21,935 nt of DNA from a virus: IMG/VR virus record IMGVR_UViG_3300006641_003025, positions 1-21,935 of that record; one strand, 5' to 3'. A model generated the notes under the pieces. The model saw only the letters and a list, made by a program, of their open reading frames with translations, made no database searches and had not been told where the DNA came from. Made by a program: the position numbers and the translations under genes. This document shows, piece after piece, positions 5,837 through 17,145 of the stretch. Numbering within the stretch: the first letter of the stretch is position 1; each line of letters opens with the position of its first letter.

Positions 5837-6473
5837 GGTTCAAACTCAAGTAATTGATTGTAATTTTGTTTACGAAATTTGTAGAAAACATTTTGAAAAT
5901 TTTAATATAATATTAAAATTCCCAAAAAACACTCCACCACATCTTACTTACCAATGGCGTTTTATTAAAATATTAACAAATAAATTCGTAAAATGGAATT
6001 TTACAATAGAAGAAATAGATTTATTCATAAATATAGCAATTAAAAAACGTTATGTACAATTAAAAACTAGAGGATTAAGCGTACTAAATGATTCAGATAT
6101 TATTGACGAATGTTACACTGAAGTTAAAAATCATGAAAATGTAGAAAATCAAGATATTGTATTATTGAAAAATACACATCAATGGTTAATTAAACAATTA
6201 AAAAATGATTCAGCAGTTGAACACTTAATAAATAGAAGAAAACCTGGCTCTTTCACCAATATAACTACATATTATCAATCTGGGTATTTAGTCAAATTGT
6301 ATATAGCGTTTTCTAAATCGTGTTGTACAGCTTTAGAATTATTATCGCAAAGATGTCCAGAAGAACGAGAAAAATGCCCAAGTACATCTGCTTTGTACTT
6401 CATACGACATTATCAAAATCAATCAATTTTACCACAAATTAAAGAAATACTAGGGAGTGATTCGTATGTTTGA
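5835..6473 (+). CDS. Unknown protein upstream of ribonucleotide reductase
   Basis: I do not recognise this 212-residue protein. It is largely helical and basic to neutral, with aromatic-rich segments (LTYQWRFIKILTNKFVKWNFT) and two cysteine-containing stretches near the end (SKSCCTALELLSQRCPEEREKCP). The single C...C spacing does not make an obvious zinc site. The only ATG is the first codon at 5835, which supports that start even though the upstream ribosome-binding sequence is weak. The gene overlaps the ribonucleotide reductase start by 8 bases, so the two are co-transcribed and probably coupled. The start codon overlaps the start of the opposite-strand gene. Confidence 0.7.
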   Translation: MVQTQVIDCNFVYEICRKHFENFNIILKFPKNTPPHLTYQWRFIKILTNKFVKWNFTIEEIDLFINIAIKKRYVQLKTRGLSVLNDSDIIDECYTEVKNHENVENQDIVLLKNTHQWLIKQLKNDSAVEHLINRRKPGSFTNITTYYQSGYLVKLYIAFSKSCCTALELLSQRCPEEREKCPSTSALYFIRHYQNQSILPQIKEILGSDSYV

Positions 6474-9400
6474 ATCTGTTGTTGATAGATTTTTTGGTCA
6501 CGACGATCATAAAAATTTTAAATTAAATGACTCATTTAAATCATATTATTCAAATAAAAATCCACAATTTGGATATAATGGTTTAGGAGAAACAACTTAT
6601 TATAGAACATATTCACGAATAAAAGAAGATGGAACTAAAGAAAGATTTTTTGATACTGCTGTTAGAATAATTGAAGGAACATATGAAATACAAAGACGAT
6701 ATTGTAAATGGTTACATTTGCCATACGACATTGGTAAAGCACAAGAAAGTGCTCAAGAAATGTTCGAAAGAATGTGGGCATTTAAATGGCTACCGCCTGG
6801 ACGTGGTATGTGGACTATGGGTACGCCATTCATGTGGAGATCTGGCGGAGCAAGCTTAAATAATTGCTTCAAAGGTGACACAGAATTTATCACTAGAGAA
6901 GGAATAAAGAAACTTGGTGATTGTGTTAATACAATCCAGAAAGTTTTAACATCTAATGGAAAATGGGTTGACGCTAAGATTAAGAGTTTTGGTATTCAAC
7001 CATTACAAAAAGTCATTATCCGTAGAGGACGATGGCGTAAGTCGATTTTTGCTACAGCTGATCATAGGTGGTTCGTTCATTCTAAATCTAAGAAATTTGC
7101 AACTATTGGTGCTGCAGATAATTCTAAAAATGCTTGTATAAGAGAATGTATTACAAGTGAATTAGAATCTGGTGTTAGATTGTCGATGAATTTCGGTTCT
7201 GGTATTAATAACACTAATTTACGTCCAAGTGCTTTCGGAATAGCTCATGGTATTTGTTTTGGTGATGGTACTACAGGTAGTGATAATGAAAATCATGGAA
7301 CATACTTGTATTTGTGTAAACCAAAAGACGAACAATTAGAAAAGTTTTTTTCTGCTTGTTATAAAACAGAAGCACCAGAAAAGGGTGAACATGGTGCAAT
7401 AAGAGTTGCTGATTTACCAAGAATGTTTAGAAAAATACCAGATTTAAACGAATCTTCAACATATTTATATGGATTTTTGGTCGGATATTTTGCTGCTGAT
7501 GGTGATGTTACAAATAATGGCACTGTAAGAATCGCATCATCTGAACGTTCAAATCTTGAATTAGTTCAATCTATTTGTGCTATTTTAGGAATAGGAACAT
7601 ATGAAATATCACAAGGATTGCAAACAGTTCATCACAAAGGAAAAATTAAGAAATTTGTCGGTTATCGTTTAACATTAATGGCTGAACATCTTAATTCAGA
7701 ATTCTTTTTAATTGATGAACATAAACAACGATTTAATGCTAGAATTAAAACAAGTAGAAAGAAAATTCCTACATATCAATCGTGGTATGTAGAATCTGTT
7801 GAAGACACGCCTCTCATAGAAGAAGTGTTTTGCCCACAAGTTCCTGAAACTTATTGTTTCACATTAGCTGGTAATATTCTAACCGGAAATTGCGGATTTG
7901 TTTCTACCAATGATGAAATAGAATTAGATCCATCAACTCCATTTGCATTTGCGATGGACATGTTAATGCTGGGAGTTGGTATTGGATTTGATACCAAAGG
8001 TTCTGATCGAATTAAAATCAAGAAACCGCATGCTAAAACTACAAAATATATAATTGAAGATAGTCGTGAAGGGTGGGTTCATGCGTTATCGGATCTTATA
8101 AGATCATATACAATTAAACAAGAACTTGGTAATTTGCAATTTGATTATGGATTGATACGACCGAAAGGCAGTCTAATAAAAGGCTTTGGTGGAGAAGCAT
8201 CTGGTCCAGAAGGTTTAAAAGAACTATTGGAATCAACTAATGAATTTTTAGCAACAAGAATTAAAACCAGATTAACAAGTGTTGATATAGCTGATTTGAT
8301 GAATTTAGTTGGAAAATGTGTTGTCGCTGGTAATGTAAGACGCTCAGCAGAAATTGCTTTCGGATTTCCAAATGATATTGAATATAGATCAATGAAAAAT
8401 CCAACTCGTGATTTAAATGCTGAAGAAATAGGTGAATTTTATAAAATAACTGGTAAATTGTATAGTGAAAACAGATATAAAGCTAATTTAGATGATTTTG
8501 AATTCACTAATATTGACAGATCTAAATTATCTAGAGCCATAGAAGTATGGAATGCGATGAATGATCGTCGATGGGCGTCCAATAATTCAGTTTTTTCCGA
8601 AGTTGGTATGGATTATACAGAAGTTGGACATTCAACAGCGTTAAATGGAGAACCTGGTTACATCTGGCTCGATAATATGCGAGATTTTGGTAGGATGAAA
8701 GATGGTCGTCAACCAGGAATAGATGGTAGAGTGATGGGTAGTAATCCATGTGTTTCTGGAGACACAAGAATTCAAACTAAAGATGGAGCGTTTAAAATAA
8801 TAGATTGCGTTGATAAAGAAGTTGAAGTGTGGAATGGTCAAAAATGGTCAAAAGTTACACCGCGTAAAACTGGTACAAATAAATTTTTAAGAAGAGTTAA
8901 ATTGTCAGATGGATCTTATCTTGATGCCACACCAAATCATAGATGGTCAATTGTTAAAGAATCTGGTGAATTAGCTGAAATTGAAACTGATTCTTTAATG
9001 GCTAATGATAAACTTGAAACATTTTCATTGCCTGTTATTGATGGTGTATTAAGTATACCTGATTTGTTGGGTAAATTGGCTGCTGGTGATAATACTGTAT
9101 TTCATGAAGTTGTTGATGTATATGGTGAAATTGTAGCCAATGAATTATTAGACAATCGACAACCATTGCCAGATGTTATATTTACAATGGGTACTAATGA
9201 TTGTTCTAAATTTTTATTGGCTTGGGCTAAAACAAAAGGTGTTGTTGCTATTAGAGATTCGTCTATTATATTAATTTCGATATCAAATCGTAGATTACAT
9301 GAATTACAAATTTTGGCGAGACGTGCTGGGCAATCTGATACTATTATACATTCTGATTCTTTGATTATACGTAACATTTCTGGACAATTAGCTGTTCTGT

Positions 9401-10431
9401 CTGGTTGTAAAAATGACGCTGAACCAATAATAAATGAACAATTAGTTGTTTCTGTTGATATTATAGCTGGTACACATGATACATATTGTTTTGAAGAACC
9501 AGAATTACACAAAGGAGTGTTTAATAATGTGTTGACTCATCAGTGTGTTGAACAAACTCTAGAGAGTTATGAATTGTGCAATCTTGTAGAGACTTTCCCT
9601 GTTAAGAATGACGATGAAGTTGATTATATGCGTACCATTAAATATGCGTATTTATATGGTAAAACAGTAACTTTATTGCCGACTCATAATGATCGTACAA
9701 ATAGAGTTATGTTACGCAATCGTCGTATTGGATTGAGTCAATCAGGTATTGTTCAAGGTTTTGAAAAATTTGGTCGTCGCCGATATATTGATAATTTTTG
9801 TGATGCGGCTTATAGTGAAATTAAACGTTGGGATAGAATTTATTCTGAATATTTGGTATGTAGACAAAGTATTAAAGTGACTAGTATTAAACCAAGTGGT
9901 ACTGTTAGTTTAATAGCTGGTGTAACTCCTGGTATTCATTTTCCAGAAGCTAGAAGTTATTGGCGTAGAATGCGTTTGGCGGCTAATAGTGTTTTAGTTA
10001 AAGTTTTGAAAGATGCTGGATATCATGTTGAACCTGCTATGACAGACCCAGATAATACTGTTGTTGTGACATTTGGGGTTGAAGATGTTGGTGTTAGGCC
10101 AATTATGGATGTTTCGATATGGGAACAAATGGACAATGTTGCTGCTATTCAACATTATTGGGCTGATAATGCAGTTAGTGTGACTATTCAATTTAAACCA
10201 GAGGAAGCTAAAGATATACCAAAGATTTTAGAACATTATGAAGATAGAATTAAAGCTGTTAGCTTTTTACCACATTCTACACATGGTTATGTTCAGGCTC
10301 CATATGAACAAGCTAAAAAAGAAGATGTTGTTGCATATAATTCAAAATTAAAACCAATAGATTTTTCTTTGATGTTTGAAGAAGCAGTTGGTGAAAAATT
10401 TTGTAGTAATGATACTTGTGTTATTGGTTAA
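6466..10431 (+). CDS. nrdJ: Adenosylcobalamin-dependent (class II) ribonucleoside-triphosphate reductase with two inteins
   Basis: This enzyme makes deoxynucleotides for phage DNA synthesis using a cobalamin-generated thiyl radical. Exteins match the monomeric Lactobacillus leichmannii type: YYRTYSR, FKWLPPGRGMWTMGT, GGASLNN, AGNVRRSAEIAFG and IKPSGTVSLIAGVTPGIHFPEA. Removing both inteins leaves 714 residues, against 739 in the L. leichmannii enzyme. In the spliced numbering C134 corresponds to C119, the N418-P-C420-V-E422 motif to N406/C408/E410, and C431 to C419. The spacing of 11 between the last two cysteines is exact. The C-terminal FCSNDTC pair (C-x4-C) fits the redox-relay cysteines C731/C736. 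I chose ATG 6466 because AGGGAG (6452-6457) lies 8 bases upstream; a GTG at 6457 lies within that site. It overlaps the previous gene by 8 bases and is followed by a strong palindromic terminator. Confidence 0.93.
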   Translation: MFESVVDRFFGHDDHKNFKLNDSFKSYYSNKNPQFGYNGLGETTYYRTYSRIKEDGTKERFFDTAVRIIEGTYEIQRRYCKWLHLPYDIGKAQESAQEMFERMWAFKWLPPGRGMWTMGTPFMWRSGGASLNNCFKGDTEFITREGIKKLGDCVNTIQKVLTSNGKWVDAKIKSFGIQPLQKVIIRRGRWRKSIFATADHRWFVHSKSKKFATIGAADNSKNACIRECITSELESGVRLSMNFGSGINNTNLRPSAFGIAHGICFGDGTTGSDNENHGTYLYLCKPKDEQLEKFFSACYKTEAPEKGEHGAIRVADLPRMFRKIPDLNESSTYLYGFLVGYFAADGDVTNNGTVRIASSERSNLELVQSICAILGIGTYEISQGLQTVHHKGKIKKFVGYRLTLMAEHLNSEFFLIDEHKQRFNARIKTSRKKIPTYQSWYVESVEDTPLIEEVFCPQVPETYCFTLAGNILTGNCGFVSTNDEIELDPSTPFAFAMDMLMLGVGIGFDTKGSDRIKIKKPHAKTTKYIIEDSREGWVHALSDLIRSYTIKQELGNLQFDYGLIRPKGSLIKGFGGEASGPEGLKELLESTNEFLATRIKTRLTSVDIADLMNLVGKCVVAGNVRRSAEIAFGFPNDIEYRSMKNPTRDLNAEEIGEFYKITGKLYSENRYKANLDDFEFTNIDRSKLSRAIEVWNAMNDRRWASNNSVFSEVGMDYTEVGHSTALNGEPGYIWLDNMRDFGRMKDGRQPGIDGRVMGSNPCVSGDTRIQTKDGAFKIIDCVDKEVEVWNGQKWSKVTPRKTGTNKFLRRVKLSDGSYLDATPNHRWSIVKESGELAEIETDSLMANDKLETFSLPVIDGVLSIPDLLGKLAAGDNTVFHEVVDVYGEIVANELLDNRQPLPDVIFTMGTNDCSKFLLAWAKTKGVVAIRDSSIILISISNRRLHELQILARRAGQSDTIIHSDSLIIRNISGQLAVLSGCKNDAEPIINEQLVVSVDIIAGTHDTYCFEEPELHKGVFNNVLTHQCVEQTLESYELCNLVETFPVKNDDEVDYMRTIKYAYLYGKTVTLLPTHNDRTNRVMLRNRRIGLSQSGIVQGFEKFGRRRYIDNFCDAAYSEIKRWDRIYSEYLVCRQSIKVTSIKPSGTVSLIAGVTPGIHFPEARSYWRRMRLAANSVLVKVLKDAGYHVEPAMTDPDNTVVVTFGVEDVGVRPIMDVSIWEQMDNVAAIQHYWADNAVSVTIQFKPEEAKDIPKILEHYEDRIKAVSFLPHSTHGYVQAPYEQAKKEDVVAYNSKLKPIDFSLMFEEAVGEKFCSNDTCVIG
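6865..7890 (+). mobile_element. Intein 1 of the ribonucleotide reductase, with intact LAGLIDADG endonuclease
   Basis: This in-frame intein of 342 residues lies between extein ...GASLNN and CGFVST. It begins with Cys1 (CFKGDTEFITREG, block A) and has a block B motif with T-A-D-H (FATADHRWF). It ends FTLAGNILTGN followed by Cys+1. The last residue is the usual Asn but the one before it is Gly instead of His, a known variation. Between the splicing blocks lie two LAGLIDADG-type helices: AHGICFGDG (Asp134 of the intein) and LVGYFAADG (Asp212). Both keep the catalytic acidic residue, so the homing endonuclease is predicted to be active. The +1 cysteine equals C119 of the L. leichmannii enzyme, so the reductase cannot have its redox pair in place until splicing. 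Confidence 0.92.
8749..9543 (+). mobile_element. Intein 2 of the ribonucleotide reductase, decayed endonuclease, Gln terminus
   Basis: This in-frame intein of 265 residues lies between extein ...MGSNP and CVEQTLE. Block A is CVSGDTRIQTKDG, block B has T-P-N-H (DATPNHRWSIV), and the C-terminal block is GVFNNVLTHQ before Cys+1. The last residue is Gln where most inteins have Asn; Gln-ending inteins are known to splice. The endonuclease part is shortened and degenerate. FLLAWAKTKG keeps the shape of a LAGLIDADG helix but has Lys163 where the catalytic Asp should be, and the first helix (LLGKLAAGD) is also poor. The following HELQILARRAG segment is typical after the second helix of intein endonucleases. 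The +1 cysteine equals C408, the thiyl-radical cysteine. Confidence 0.9.
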
Positions 10432-14158: not shown

Positions 14159-17145
14159 TGAATATAACTGAAGAAATATTAGCATGCCAAAAATCAATAA
14201 TTCATTTTTTATCACAACATTGTAAATTGCAGCATCCATCTGCTGGTATGCTTCCATTTATACCTTTTAAATATCAAATAAAAGCAATAAACGCTTTTAA
14301 TCAGCATAGATTCAACATAGTCAGAAAATGTAGACAATGTGGACTTAGCCAAATTGCTGGTGGTTATGCTTTACACCAATCTATGTTTTATCCTTATCAA
14401 ACGATCTTAGTGGTATCTAAAAAAGAAGACGATGCTAAGAATTTTTTAAAGAGAAACATTGGTTTTTTGTTTAGTAATTTACCACCATGGATGCAAGAAT
14501 TGTGGGCTCCACTTAAATGGAATGAACACGAGATTGAATTTCCAAATCATAGTAGCATAAAATCATTAACCAGCAGCCCTAATGTGTTACGATCACATTC
14601 CGCGTCATTGAACATAATTGACGAAGCTGCGTTTATACCATCGATGGATTCCATGTGGGCAGCAGGTTGGTCATGTGTAACTGGTGATACACTATTGTCA
14701 ACAAACAATGGTTTAACTAGAATACAATCATTGGTTAAAAATTCTGACCAATGGCAAGATATTGATATAAATGTTAATACCGATGAAGCAATTGAAAAGT
14801 CTGATAAATTATATCTATCAGGACATACCCCAATAAGAAGAATTAAAACAGAACTTGGATTAGAAATTGGTGCCACAGGTAATCATAGATTAAGAACCGT
14901 AACACCAAATGGTGATTATGAATGGTTATATGTAGATAAAGCTTGCGTTGGACAGTATGTTGTAATAAAACTTGGTCAAATTCCAAATATGAAAGAAATG
15001 AACCAAGAATTATATATGGCTGGTATAATATTAGCAAGAGCCACAAAAGTCGGAGATGAAATCCACACTAAATTTAATAGTCAATTATTGACATCCGAAT
15101 TTGTTCAAGTATGTAATGAAATATTCGGAGAAGATGGATTTATTATTAATAAACGTCAATTGAAAATTAATAATCCAATAATATTTGACATTATTAATAA
15201 GTATAATATTGATATCACTACACCAATTGTTGATCGTGAATTATCAGATGAAATATTATCATTGGGTAGAGATAATTATTATCATATAATATGTGGAATT
15301 ATAGATGCTCAATCAGCTAGCGGTAAAAGAATAGGTGCGATTTTTGATAGTCATAAATTAGCTAGAAATGTTCAAGATATATTATTTGATTTTGGATTTC
15401 CGATTTCGATTGGAATAACGTCAGCTAATCAATGGCGTTTAATAATAATTGATTCTGATATTGGAAATGAATTTTCAAATCATTTTTATTCTACAAGAAA
15501 TGATTTAAGATTGTGTGCTGAATCTGGTCAGTCATTAAATACTGATCATCCAATAATGGTATACATGTTCGAACAAGAATGTAATTTATTGATAAAAGAA
15601 TACCCTAATGATTCTGATATTAATAAATGTGGATCATATGGTAGAATAAGATATAATGATATTCAAAATATGTTGTCATACAATATTGGTGACATAAATT
15701 CGTGGCTGGTTTCTAAGAATTTATTTGTTGATAGAATAGTTTCAATAAAAGAAGATACAGCAGAAACATTTGATATACAAGTCCCAAATAGGAATTGTTA
15801 TGTTTCAAACAGTTTAATAAGTCACAACACTTTACAACACGGTGGTAAAGTAATAGTCATTAGTACTTTGAATGGTATGGGTGATTGGTATCATCGTACT
15901 TTGAAAGGTGCTGAAAGGGGAACTAATGGATTTAATTTAATAGAAATAAATTGGTATGACATGGATTGGTCTATAGAATATAAAGATAAGGCAACGGGCG
16001 AACATTTAAAAATTGCACCATGTGATGGTATAAGACAATGTTCTAATCAAATTGAAGTTGAAAAATATGGTAAATACTGGTCGCCGTGGTTAGAATCACA
16101 ATATATTGCATTGGCTGAAGATGGTGAAACATGGAAATTTGATCAAGAAGTTTTAGCCAGAGTTGTTAGTTCTGGTAAAACTGTCGTGCCTGCTAAAAAT
16201 TTGGATGTTGTAGAACAAACAGTTATTAAACCAATTGAAATAGCTTCTGGTATTAGACAGTATGTTCACCCAATTAAAAGAACACCAATAACATTAGATT
16301 ATGACTTTGAAAATGAACACGGTTTGTGGTTTTGGGAAAAACCAATAAAAAGAGCACCAGGATATCCTAATGGATATGATTATGTTATGGGTGTTGATAC
16401 AATGACAGGTCGTGGAGACGATTTTAATTCATTAGAAATATTTTGTATACAAACTCAAGAACAAGTTGCTGAATTGTCAATGCGTTGTATACCTAAATTG
16501 TTAGCAGCTTATATTGACATGCTTGGTAGATATTACAATACAGCATGTGTAGCTATTGAACGAAACAACGGTGGTGATGGTGTTATTGATGAATTAAGAT
16601 TGGAATATGGCTATCCTAATTTGTGGCGTAGAATTGTTCATCCTGATAAAGTAAATGCTGAAGCTAAAATTGAACCGGCTGGGTTTTTTACTAATGAACT
16701 TAGTAAAATAGCATTGAATAAATTATTAATAAATTTAGTTGGTGCAGAACAAGGAATTATAATTAAAAGTTCAAGACTACATGAACAATTATGTACTTAT
16801 ATAAATCATAGAGATAAAAGTGGTAGAATAACTGGTAAAACTGGAGCTGAAATTGGTTGTCATGATGATAATGTTAGTGCATTGGGCATATGTTTATACG
16901 CAATGGTAAGTAATCCAGATCCATCAAAAAGCATAGTATTACCATTTAAAATAGATTTAGATTTTGATTTTAACAATGAACAAATAATTGAGACATTAGA
17001 TCAGAATTTAATTCAGCCTGTAAGTAGTGATATTGATGTGATAAATTATTCTGACAATAGTTTGTCACTATTTACTCAATCATTAACTGCTGCTCCTAAA
17101 AAAACTATTCCAGCAGTTATCACAAAAAAGAACTATTTTAAATAA
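14158..17145 (+). CDS. terL: Terminase large subunit, gp17-like, with an intein
   Basis: This is the packaging motor: an ATPase that pumps DNA into the prohead and a nuclease that cuts concatemers. Removing the intein leaves 610 residues, the same as T4 gp17. The ATPase has the variant Walker A RKCRQCGLSQ (residues 56-65), where the lysine sits before RQ-x-G as in many terminases, and Walker B NIIDEAAF with D155 and E156. After the intein comes the coupling motif region GGKVIVISTLNG. The RNase H-like nuclease shows D747 in GVDTMTGRGDD, E801 in VAIERNNGG and D903/D904 in GCHDDNVSALG (unspliced numbering). The start overlaps the previous stop by one base. The gene is followed by a 123-base gap. 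Confidence 0.93.
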   Translation: MNITEEILACQKSIIHFLSQHCKLQHPSAGMLPFIPFKYQIKAINAFNQHRFNIVRKCRQCGLSQIAGGYALHQSMFYPYQTILVVSKKEDDAKNFLKRNIGFLFSNLPPWMQELWAPLKWNEHEIEFPNHSSIKSLTSSPNVLRSHSASLNIIDEAAFIPSMDSMWAAGWSCVTGDTLLSTNNGLTRIQSLVKNSDQWQDIDINVNTDEAIEKSDKLYLSGHTPIRRIKTELGLEIGATGNHRLRTVTPNGDYEWLYVDKACVGQYVVIKLGQIPNMKEMNQELYMAGIILARATKVGDEIHTKFNSQLLTSEFVQVCNEIFGEDGFIINKRQLKINNPIIFDIINKYNIDITTPIVDRELSDEILSLGRDNYYHIICGIIDAQSASGKRIGAIFDSHKLARNVQDILFDFGFPISIGITSANQWRLIIIDSDIGNEFSNHFYSTRNDLRLCAESGQSLNTDHPIMVYMFEQECNLLIKEYPNDSDINKCGSYGRIRYNDIQNMLSYNIGDINSWLVSKNLFVDRIVSIKEDTAETFDIQVPNRNCYVSNSLISHNTLQHGGKVIVISTLNGMGDWYHRTLKGAERGTNGFNLIEINWYDMDWSIEYKDKATGEHLKIAPCDGIRQCSNQIEVEKYGKYWSPWLESQYIALAEDGETWKFDQEVLARVVSSGKTVVPAKNLDVVEQTVIKPIEIASGIRQYVHPIKRTPITLDYDFENEHGLWFWEKPIKRAPGYPNGYDYVMGVDTMTGRGDDFNSLEIFCIQTQEQVAELSMRCIPKLLAAYIDMLGRYYNTACVAIERNNGGDGVIDELRLEYGYPNLWRRIVHPDKVNAEAKIEPAGFFTNELSKIALNKLLINLVGAEQGIIIKSSRLHEQLCTYINHRDKSGRITGKTGAEIGCHDDNVSALGICLYAMVSNPDPSKSIVLPFKIDLDFDFNNEQIIETLDQNLIQPVSSDIDVINYSDNSLSLFTQSLTAAPKKTIPAVITKKNYFK
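14674..15828 (+). mobile_element. Intein in the large terminase, endonuclease catalytic residues lost
   Basis: This in-frame intein of 385 residues separates extein ...MWAAGWS from TLQHGGK. It starts with Cys1 (CVTGDTLLSTNNG), has block B with T-G-N-H (GATGNHRLRTV), and ends NSLISHN with Thr+1, the canonical His-Asn pair. The endonuclease part keeps its length and helix shape but both LAGLIDADG catalytic positions are changed: Arg122 in MAGIILARA and Gln213 in ICGIIDAQS. Splicing residues look intact, so it should splice but no longer home. The insertion follows the Walker B strand and precedes the next ATPase motif, so the unspliced protein should not be able to hydrolyse ATP productively. 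Confidence 0.9.

Follow-up and report, generated by a model that had tools for sequence, protein, structure and literature searches.

The 21,935-base stretch of DNA analyzed here (the window; all of IMG/VR virus record IMGVR_UViG_3300006641_003025) carries a gene for an RTPR-like, monomeric class II (adenosylcobalamin-type) ribonucleotide reductase, the precursor of which comprises 1321 amino acids, including two inteins, in a single open frame (6466 to 10431; all features of the gene are on the + strand). We consider it very probable that the product is a phage RTPR-type reductase with two mobile inteins in recurrent hot spots, the codons directly before the catalytic cysteines C119 and C408 (RTPR numbering). 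The inteins extend exactly from Cys1 of intein 1 (TGC, 6865 to 6867) to Gln265 of intein 2 (CAG, 9541 to 9543); an initial annotation of this DNA had placed two inteins at 6865 to 9543, coordinates that are correct to the base.

Joining the exteins yields a protein of 714 amino acids that aligns to Lactobacillus leichmannii RTPR (PDB 1L1L; E = 8e-92). The N-extein (6466 to 6864; residues 1-133 of the joined protein), which was aligned to 1L1L and to the intein-free relatives L004-L011, ends in SLNN, the middle extein (7891 to 8748; residues 134-419) runs from CGFVST to GSNP, and the C-extein (9544 to 10428) comprises residues 420-714. By residue count on the 1L1L alignment, the +1 cysteine after intein 1 (C134, 7891 to 7893) is equivalent to RTPR C119, the +1 cysteine after intein 2 (C420, 9544 to 9546) to the thiyl-radical cysteine C408, and C431 (9577 to 9579), located 11 residues past the latter, to C419. 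The initial annotation had claimed that the junctions abut C119 and C408, that both catalytic cysteines are therefore the +1 splicing nucleophiles, and that the spacing of 11 residues between C420 and C431 matches C408/C419; the alignment with RTPR, which it had proposed as a check, bears out all of this.

The C-terminal cysteine pair C706/C711 (10402 to 10419) has a spacing of 5 and matches, in location as well as in spacing, what we take to be C731/C736 of RTPR. Together with C134, C420 and C431, these two residues occupy columns that are invariant among ten divergent phage reductases. The cysteines characteristic of monomeric class II RTPR, namely the C119/C419 pair, the radical cysteine C408 and the C-terminal cysteine pair, are thus present. 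The precursor matches the RTPR model TIGR02505 with an E-value of 2.8e-88 (a score of 296.8 bits, where the cut-off is 340 bits, for a sequence still interrupted by the inteins) and the PHROG ribonucleotide reductase family with an E-value of 1e-117. The gene product is predicted to be an adenosylcobalamin-dependent RTPR-type reductase.

Intein blocks A, B, F and G can be recognized in both inserts, as can further features characteristic of inteins: Cys1, the block B TxxH motif, a C-terminal Asn or Gln, and a cysteine at +1. Intein 1 (6865 to 7890; 342 amino acids, CFKGDTEF...NILTGN) has homologues in L012 and L016, inserted at the same position. Its AlphaFold model has a mean pLDDT of 87, and the best PDB folds found with Foldseek are the endonuclease-bearing inteins TliVMA, PI-PfuI and PI-SceI, which supports a Hedgehog/intein fold. 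Both of its LAGLIDADG motifs, GIAHGICFGDG (7231 to 7269) and GFLVGYFAADG (7468 to 7503), have kept the catalytic aspartate (D134 and D212), and intein 1 matches the Pfam model LAGLIDADG_3 (E 6.7e-7). With intact homing endonuclease motifs, intein 1 is probably able to spread, and would do so by cutting DNA.

Intein 2 (8749 to 9543; 265 amino acids, CVSGDTRI...NVLTHQ) ends in Gln and is supported as an intein by sequence models (TIGR01445 above cut-off and a weak Pfam match). Its LAGLIDADG region is shortened and degenerate: the second motif reads FLLAWAKTKG, compared with FIAGCLDTDG in relatives, so that the catalytic residues are lost. No LAGLIDADG model of Pfam matches intein 2, in contrast to intein 1 and to the C408 intein of L012 (E 2.6e-14). 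Having lost these motifs, intein 2 would persist because the host protein needs its splicing. Searches of the PDB with phmmer gave no match for either intein as a single sequence; matches were obtained with intein profiles.

The distribution of the inteins among close relatives is patchy. Both sites are empty in eight relatives (L004-L011; 46-50% identity), L016 has intein 1 and lacks intein 2, and L012-L015 and L017, which are nearly identical in DNA, have intein 1 plus a different intein of 405 amino acids at C408. In related phages, the reductase is therefore evidently functional without these inteins. The inteins of L012 have a GC content of 36-42%, compared with about 50% in the exteins, which suggests that they were acquired from outside. 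Intein 1 is 80-82% identical to its L012 and L016 counterparts, and the exteins are 59-78% identical. In these comparisons the nonsynonymous divergence (dN) is about 0.15 and the synonymous divergence (dS) saturated or nearly so, which indicates that the whole of intein 1 is under purifying selection.

The patchy occurrence favors mobile elements over a built-in switch. In the latter reading, which we regard as unlikely, the redox state or a metal governs splicing, and hence reductase activity, during infection. Each intein does bring together three reactive thiols (Cys1, the cysteine at block F position 4, and the catalytic +1 cysteine), and there are precedents: one of the two inteins of Mycobacterium smegmatis DnaB is reversibly blocked by oxidation or peroxide (PMC6195587), and other inteins are influenced by disulfide bonds and by divalent cations (PMC4031507). 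Yet close relatives do without intein 2 or without both, and unrelated inteins occupy the same sites, including some (L252, L260 and L262) in which the fourth position of block F is Asp. Moreover, sensitivity of the chemistry does not by itself equal regulation, and the sequence offers nothing by which control through redox state or metals could be told apart from plain splicing.

To survey intein sites, viral contigs were searched with only the part of the reductase after C419, a query free of inteins that was chosen because inteins at the sites of interest then cannot bias retrieval. An earlier wide scan was excluded as a site survey, because one of its search patterns extends over the C119 junction and would overlook sites that already hold an intein. 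Among the best 80 loci, 73 genes extend to the N-terminal part, and 11 of these carry inteins, 13 in all: four at C119, six at C408, one at C419, one a single residue past C419, and one at the non-catalytic junction between VRR and S285 (window protein numbering). Since 11 of the 13 directly precede C119, C408 or C419, insertion before a catalytic cysteine is the rule in the surveyed reductase family. A reading of the placement as a special feature of this enzyme is not supported, given these numbers and the close relatives that lack intein 2 or both inteins.

The joined protein contains 9 Cys, 46 Ser and 39 Thr. If two sites are drawn at random from these 94, the probability that both are among the three barrel cysteines is about 0.0007; for two random cysteines it is about 0.08. 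The coincidence in the window is therefore strong only if inteins can use any Cys, Ser or Thr. For the survey, the chance of finding 11 of 13 inteins on 3 of 94 possible sites is about 3e-15, a figure that assumes independent inteins, an assumption violated by shared descent. Nor is double occupancy unique to the window reductase: two inteins are found at C119/C408 in L012 (also found as L013-L015) and L034, at C119/C419 in L027, and at C408/C419 in L026. The C119 site is also occupied in two loci from bacterial metagenome-assembled genomes (L175 and L181).

Several of these genes have peculiarities of their own. The L226 reductase has inteins at C119 and at the non-catalytic junction between VRR and T (S285 of the window protein), and the partial gene L263 contains an intein end at that same non-catalytic site. 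In L026 (1-3219), the C408 intein appears to be naturally split, with an N part that ends at 403, a C part that starts with an ATG at 1252, and a separate open reading frame (456-1271) between the halves. Its second intein is at C419, and the extein between the two inteins consists of just 11 residues, CGEATLEDGEP.

Inteins are known to favor conserved sites in general (PMC2814812). In the reductase family surveyed here, they occur almost only before three active-site cysteines, residues that can be neither changed nor deleted. This rule agrees with the view that inteins endure most readily at positions from which an imprecise loss is lethal and at which a +1 nucleophile is guaranteed. The two inteins of the window most likely persist as mobile elements at such positions, where losing them imprecisely is lethal.

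We propose the following sequence of events. Translation would give a precursor interrupted right before C119 and right before C408. Each intein would fold as a splicing domain, shift the N-extein to the +1 cysteine, cyclize its own last residue and depart, upon which a peptide bond would join the exteins. In the branched intermediate, the catalytic sulfur itself would bear the N-extein, so that the cysteine would be unable to act until splicing ends; the +1 nucleophile would then end up in the mature active site. It is plausible that the unspliced precursor has no active site, and we predict it to be inactive on the basis of the anatomy and of intein chemistry, in which the +1 sulfur holds the N-extein as a thioester. 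From this anatomy, a dependence of the reductase on splicing would follow. One could extend the scheme to a double redox lock, in which an unspliced intein ties up the sulfur of C119 or C408, and oxidized intein cysteines keep the reductase a zymogen until the cell is reducing. The zymogen would then be released under the same reducing condition that the mature enzyme needs for turnover; we hold this scheme to be very improbable.

Some observations weigh against two functional mobile inteins as the explanation. We infer splicing itself from sequence and models, and the AlphaFold model of intein 2 is poor (pLDDT 58), too weak for a fold search. The higher identity of intein 1 may reflect strong constraint instead of transfer, given that synonymous sites are saturated. 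In addition, intein 2 pairs Pro at -1 with a C-terminal Gln, and poor splicing or partial regulation of intein 2 is possible, because inteins that end in Gln splice slowly in some cases (PMC4031507).

Taken further, the same features of intein 2, along with its ruined endonuclease, could mean that one intein or both can no longer splice properly and are relics, and that the reductase is a decaying pseudogene, much as has been suggested for intein-containing nrdA genes of Campylobacter phages, which may be degenerating (PMC3653736). We give this little credence: the frame of 1321 codons is intact, the catalytic residues are conserved and the exteins are constrained. A C-terminal Gln is, moreover, common to the entire intein family at the C419 site and to most inteins at the C439 site of NrdA, and in the case of the CIV RNR intein, splicing is better when the last residue is Gln than when it is Asn (PMC4031507).

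Intein 1, at the C119 site, contains a Trp-Cys-Thr (WCT) triplet made up of Trp69 at block B position 12 (7069 to 7071), the family-invariant Cys323 at block F position 4 (7831 to 7833), and Thr340 at block G position 5 (7882 to 7884). The triplet is conserved in all C119-site inteins examined, nearly all of which keep Cys1. The corresponding positions of intein 2 are Trp66 at block B position 12 (8944 to 8946), Cys247 at block F position 4 (9487 to 9489) and Thr263. Class 3 inteins have no nucleophile at position 1; inteins 1 and 2 both start with Cys, and on this ground we do not class either as class 3. Mixed-signature inteins that proved to be class 3 by mechanism have reportedly been described by Tori and Perler in 2011. 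Splicing of intein 1 may start at the internal Cys323, the candidate initiating nucleophile under class 3 chemistry, rather than at Cys1. The WCT triplet is an established mark of class 3 inteins (PMC3196547, PMC7891396), of which just one with a +1 Cys was known at the time of PMC5222942.

Two C119-site inteins, in L175 (5343-6341) and L214 (near 6001-6894), start with Pro, have kept the WCT triplet, have lost the block B Thr and are followed by a +1 Cys; they are candidate class 3 inteins of a rare type. The Cys1-bearing WCT inteins at C119 and these two Pro1 relatives are possible natural intermediates in the origin of class 3 splicing. Relatives of intein 1 also occur directly before Cys in other proteins (L201, L202, L203, L204, L205 and L213), with flanks that resemble a zinc-finger motif (L203, FGCSP) or a DNA polymerase motif (L205, YGT).

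In a tree of 18 inteins, intein 2 falls into one group with four inteins inserted at the C419 and C420 positions (support 99/97). The alternative grouping, with four other C408 inteins (L012, L034, L221 and L222), was rejected by the approximately unbiased (AU) test (p 0.012); with an earlier tree of 23 inteins, made before the survey inteins were added, the AU test of intein 2 with the other C408 inteins had given no decision (p 0.16). The grouping and the rejection indicate that two or more separate lineages of inteins have settled at C408 and that one intein family occupies two catalytic cysteines 11-12 codons apart. The question posed by intein 2 is that of a family split over two catalytic cysteines 11 codons apart in one gene, with one member devoid of endonuclease.

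The initial annotation had concluded that nucleotide supply depends on two splicing events, which may or may not be so, because the record is a 21.9-kb fragment of a phage and the host cell has reductases of its own. Genes for baseplate, terminase and portal proteins have matches among the PHROG families and point to a T4-like phage with a contractile tail. An Rfam scan of the window found no known riboswitch (e.g. cobalamin), and ARAGORN found no tRNA. A third intein is located in the large terminase subunit (14674 to 15828; 385 amino acids, CVTGDTLL...SLISHN, +1 Thr). Its block F position 4 is Asp, as in class 1 inteins, and its LAGLIDADG motifs, MAGIILARA and ICGIIDAQS, seem to have no catalytic Asp; homologues with 58-62% identity are found in L012, L014 and L016. 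Further intein signatures are present in other genes of the L016 record (116 kb; near 15.8 kb and 24.1-25.2 kb) and in the L012 record (near 5.5-6.7 kb), and these related phages seem to be rich in inteins.

Inteins homologous to those of the window reductase occur at equivalent positions in reductases of other phages. Thermobifida phage P318 carries a relative of intein 1 at its C119 site, and in Morganella phage MP1, Vibrio phage V6Aob and two gut phages such relatives are found at the homologous NrdD cysteine. The inteins of P318, MP1 and V6Aob likewise end right before the homologous catalytic cysteine, in TGN or TGQ; they share 23-29% identity with intein 1 (tblastn), there is one per gene as far as seen, and the NrdD of MP1 and V6Aob is a class III enzyme, unlike the class II reductase of the window. 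The NrdA proteins of Vibrio phage ICP1 and Pectobacterium phage phiTE have an NL/C junction homologous to NP/C408, with inteins that are related to intein 2 and mostly end in Gln. These NrdA proteins differ in being class I, and their inteins in keeping the endonuclease motifs and in sharing 27-28% identity with intein 2. The NrdD and NrdA cysteines were assigned to T4 C79 and Escherichia coli C439, respectively, by motif recognition rather than structural alignment.

The NCBIfam model PRK08332, for a B12-dependent reductase with inteins, matches without a break from the end of intein 2 into the extein behind it, which implies that an intein ends at the same junction in that reductase. The best PDB sequence match for both intein profiles is 1DQ3 (PI-PfuI). 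PI-PfuI presumably derives from the Pyrococcus furiosus reductase, and we take PRK08332 to describe Thermococcales. That system differs in being archaeal, in belonging to another class II subfamily and in its weak sequence identity.

Phage reductases are well-known hosts of inteins (PMC3653736), and phage NrdA with several inteins has been published (PMC3322345). The latter gene resembles ours in its multiple inteins (three annotated); it is class I, is not single-frame, and has junctions that, in our own reading, are near and not at the catalytic cysteine. A literature search of partial coverage found no description of a single reductase that carries two inteins, each at a different catalytic cysteine. 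M. smegmatis DnaB is a further parallel, with two inteins in one replication-related protein, a WCT triplet in one of them and redox sensitivity in one (PMC6195587); it differs in that DnaBi1 has no nucleophile at position 1, the host protein is a helicase and the +1 residue is Ser.

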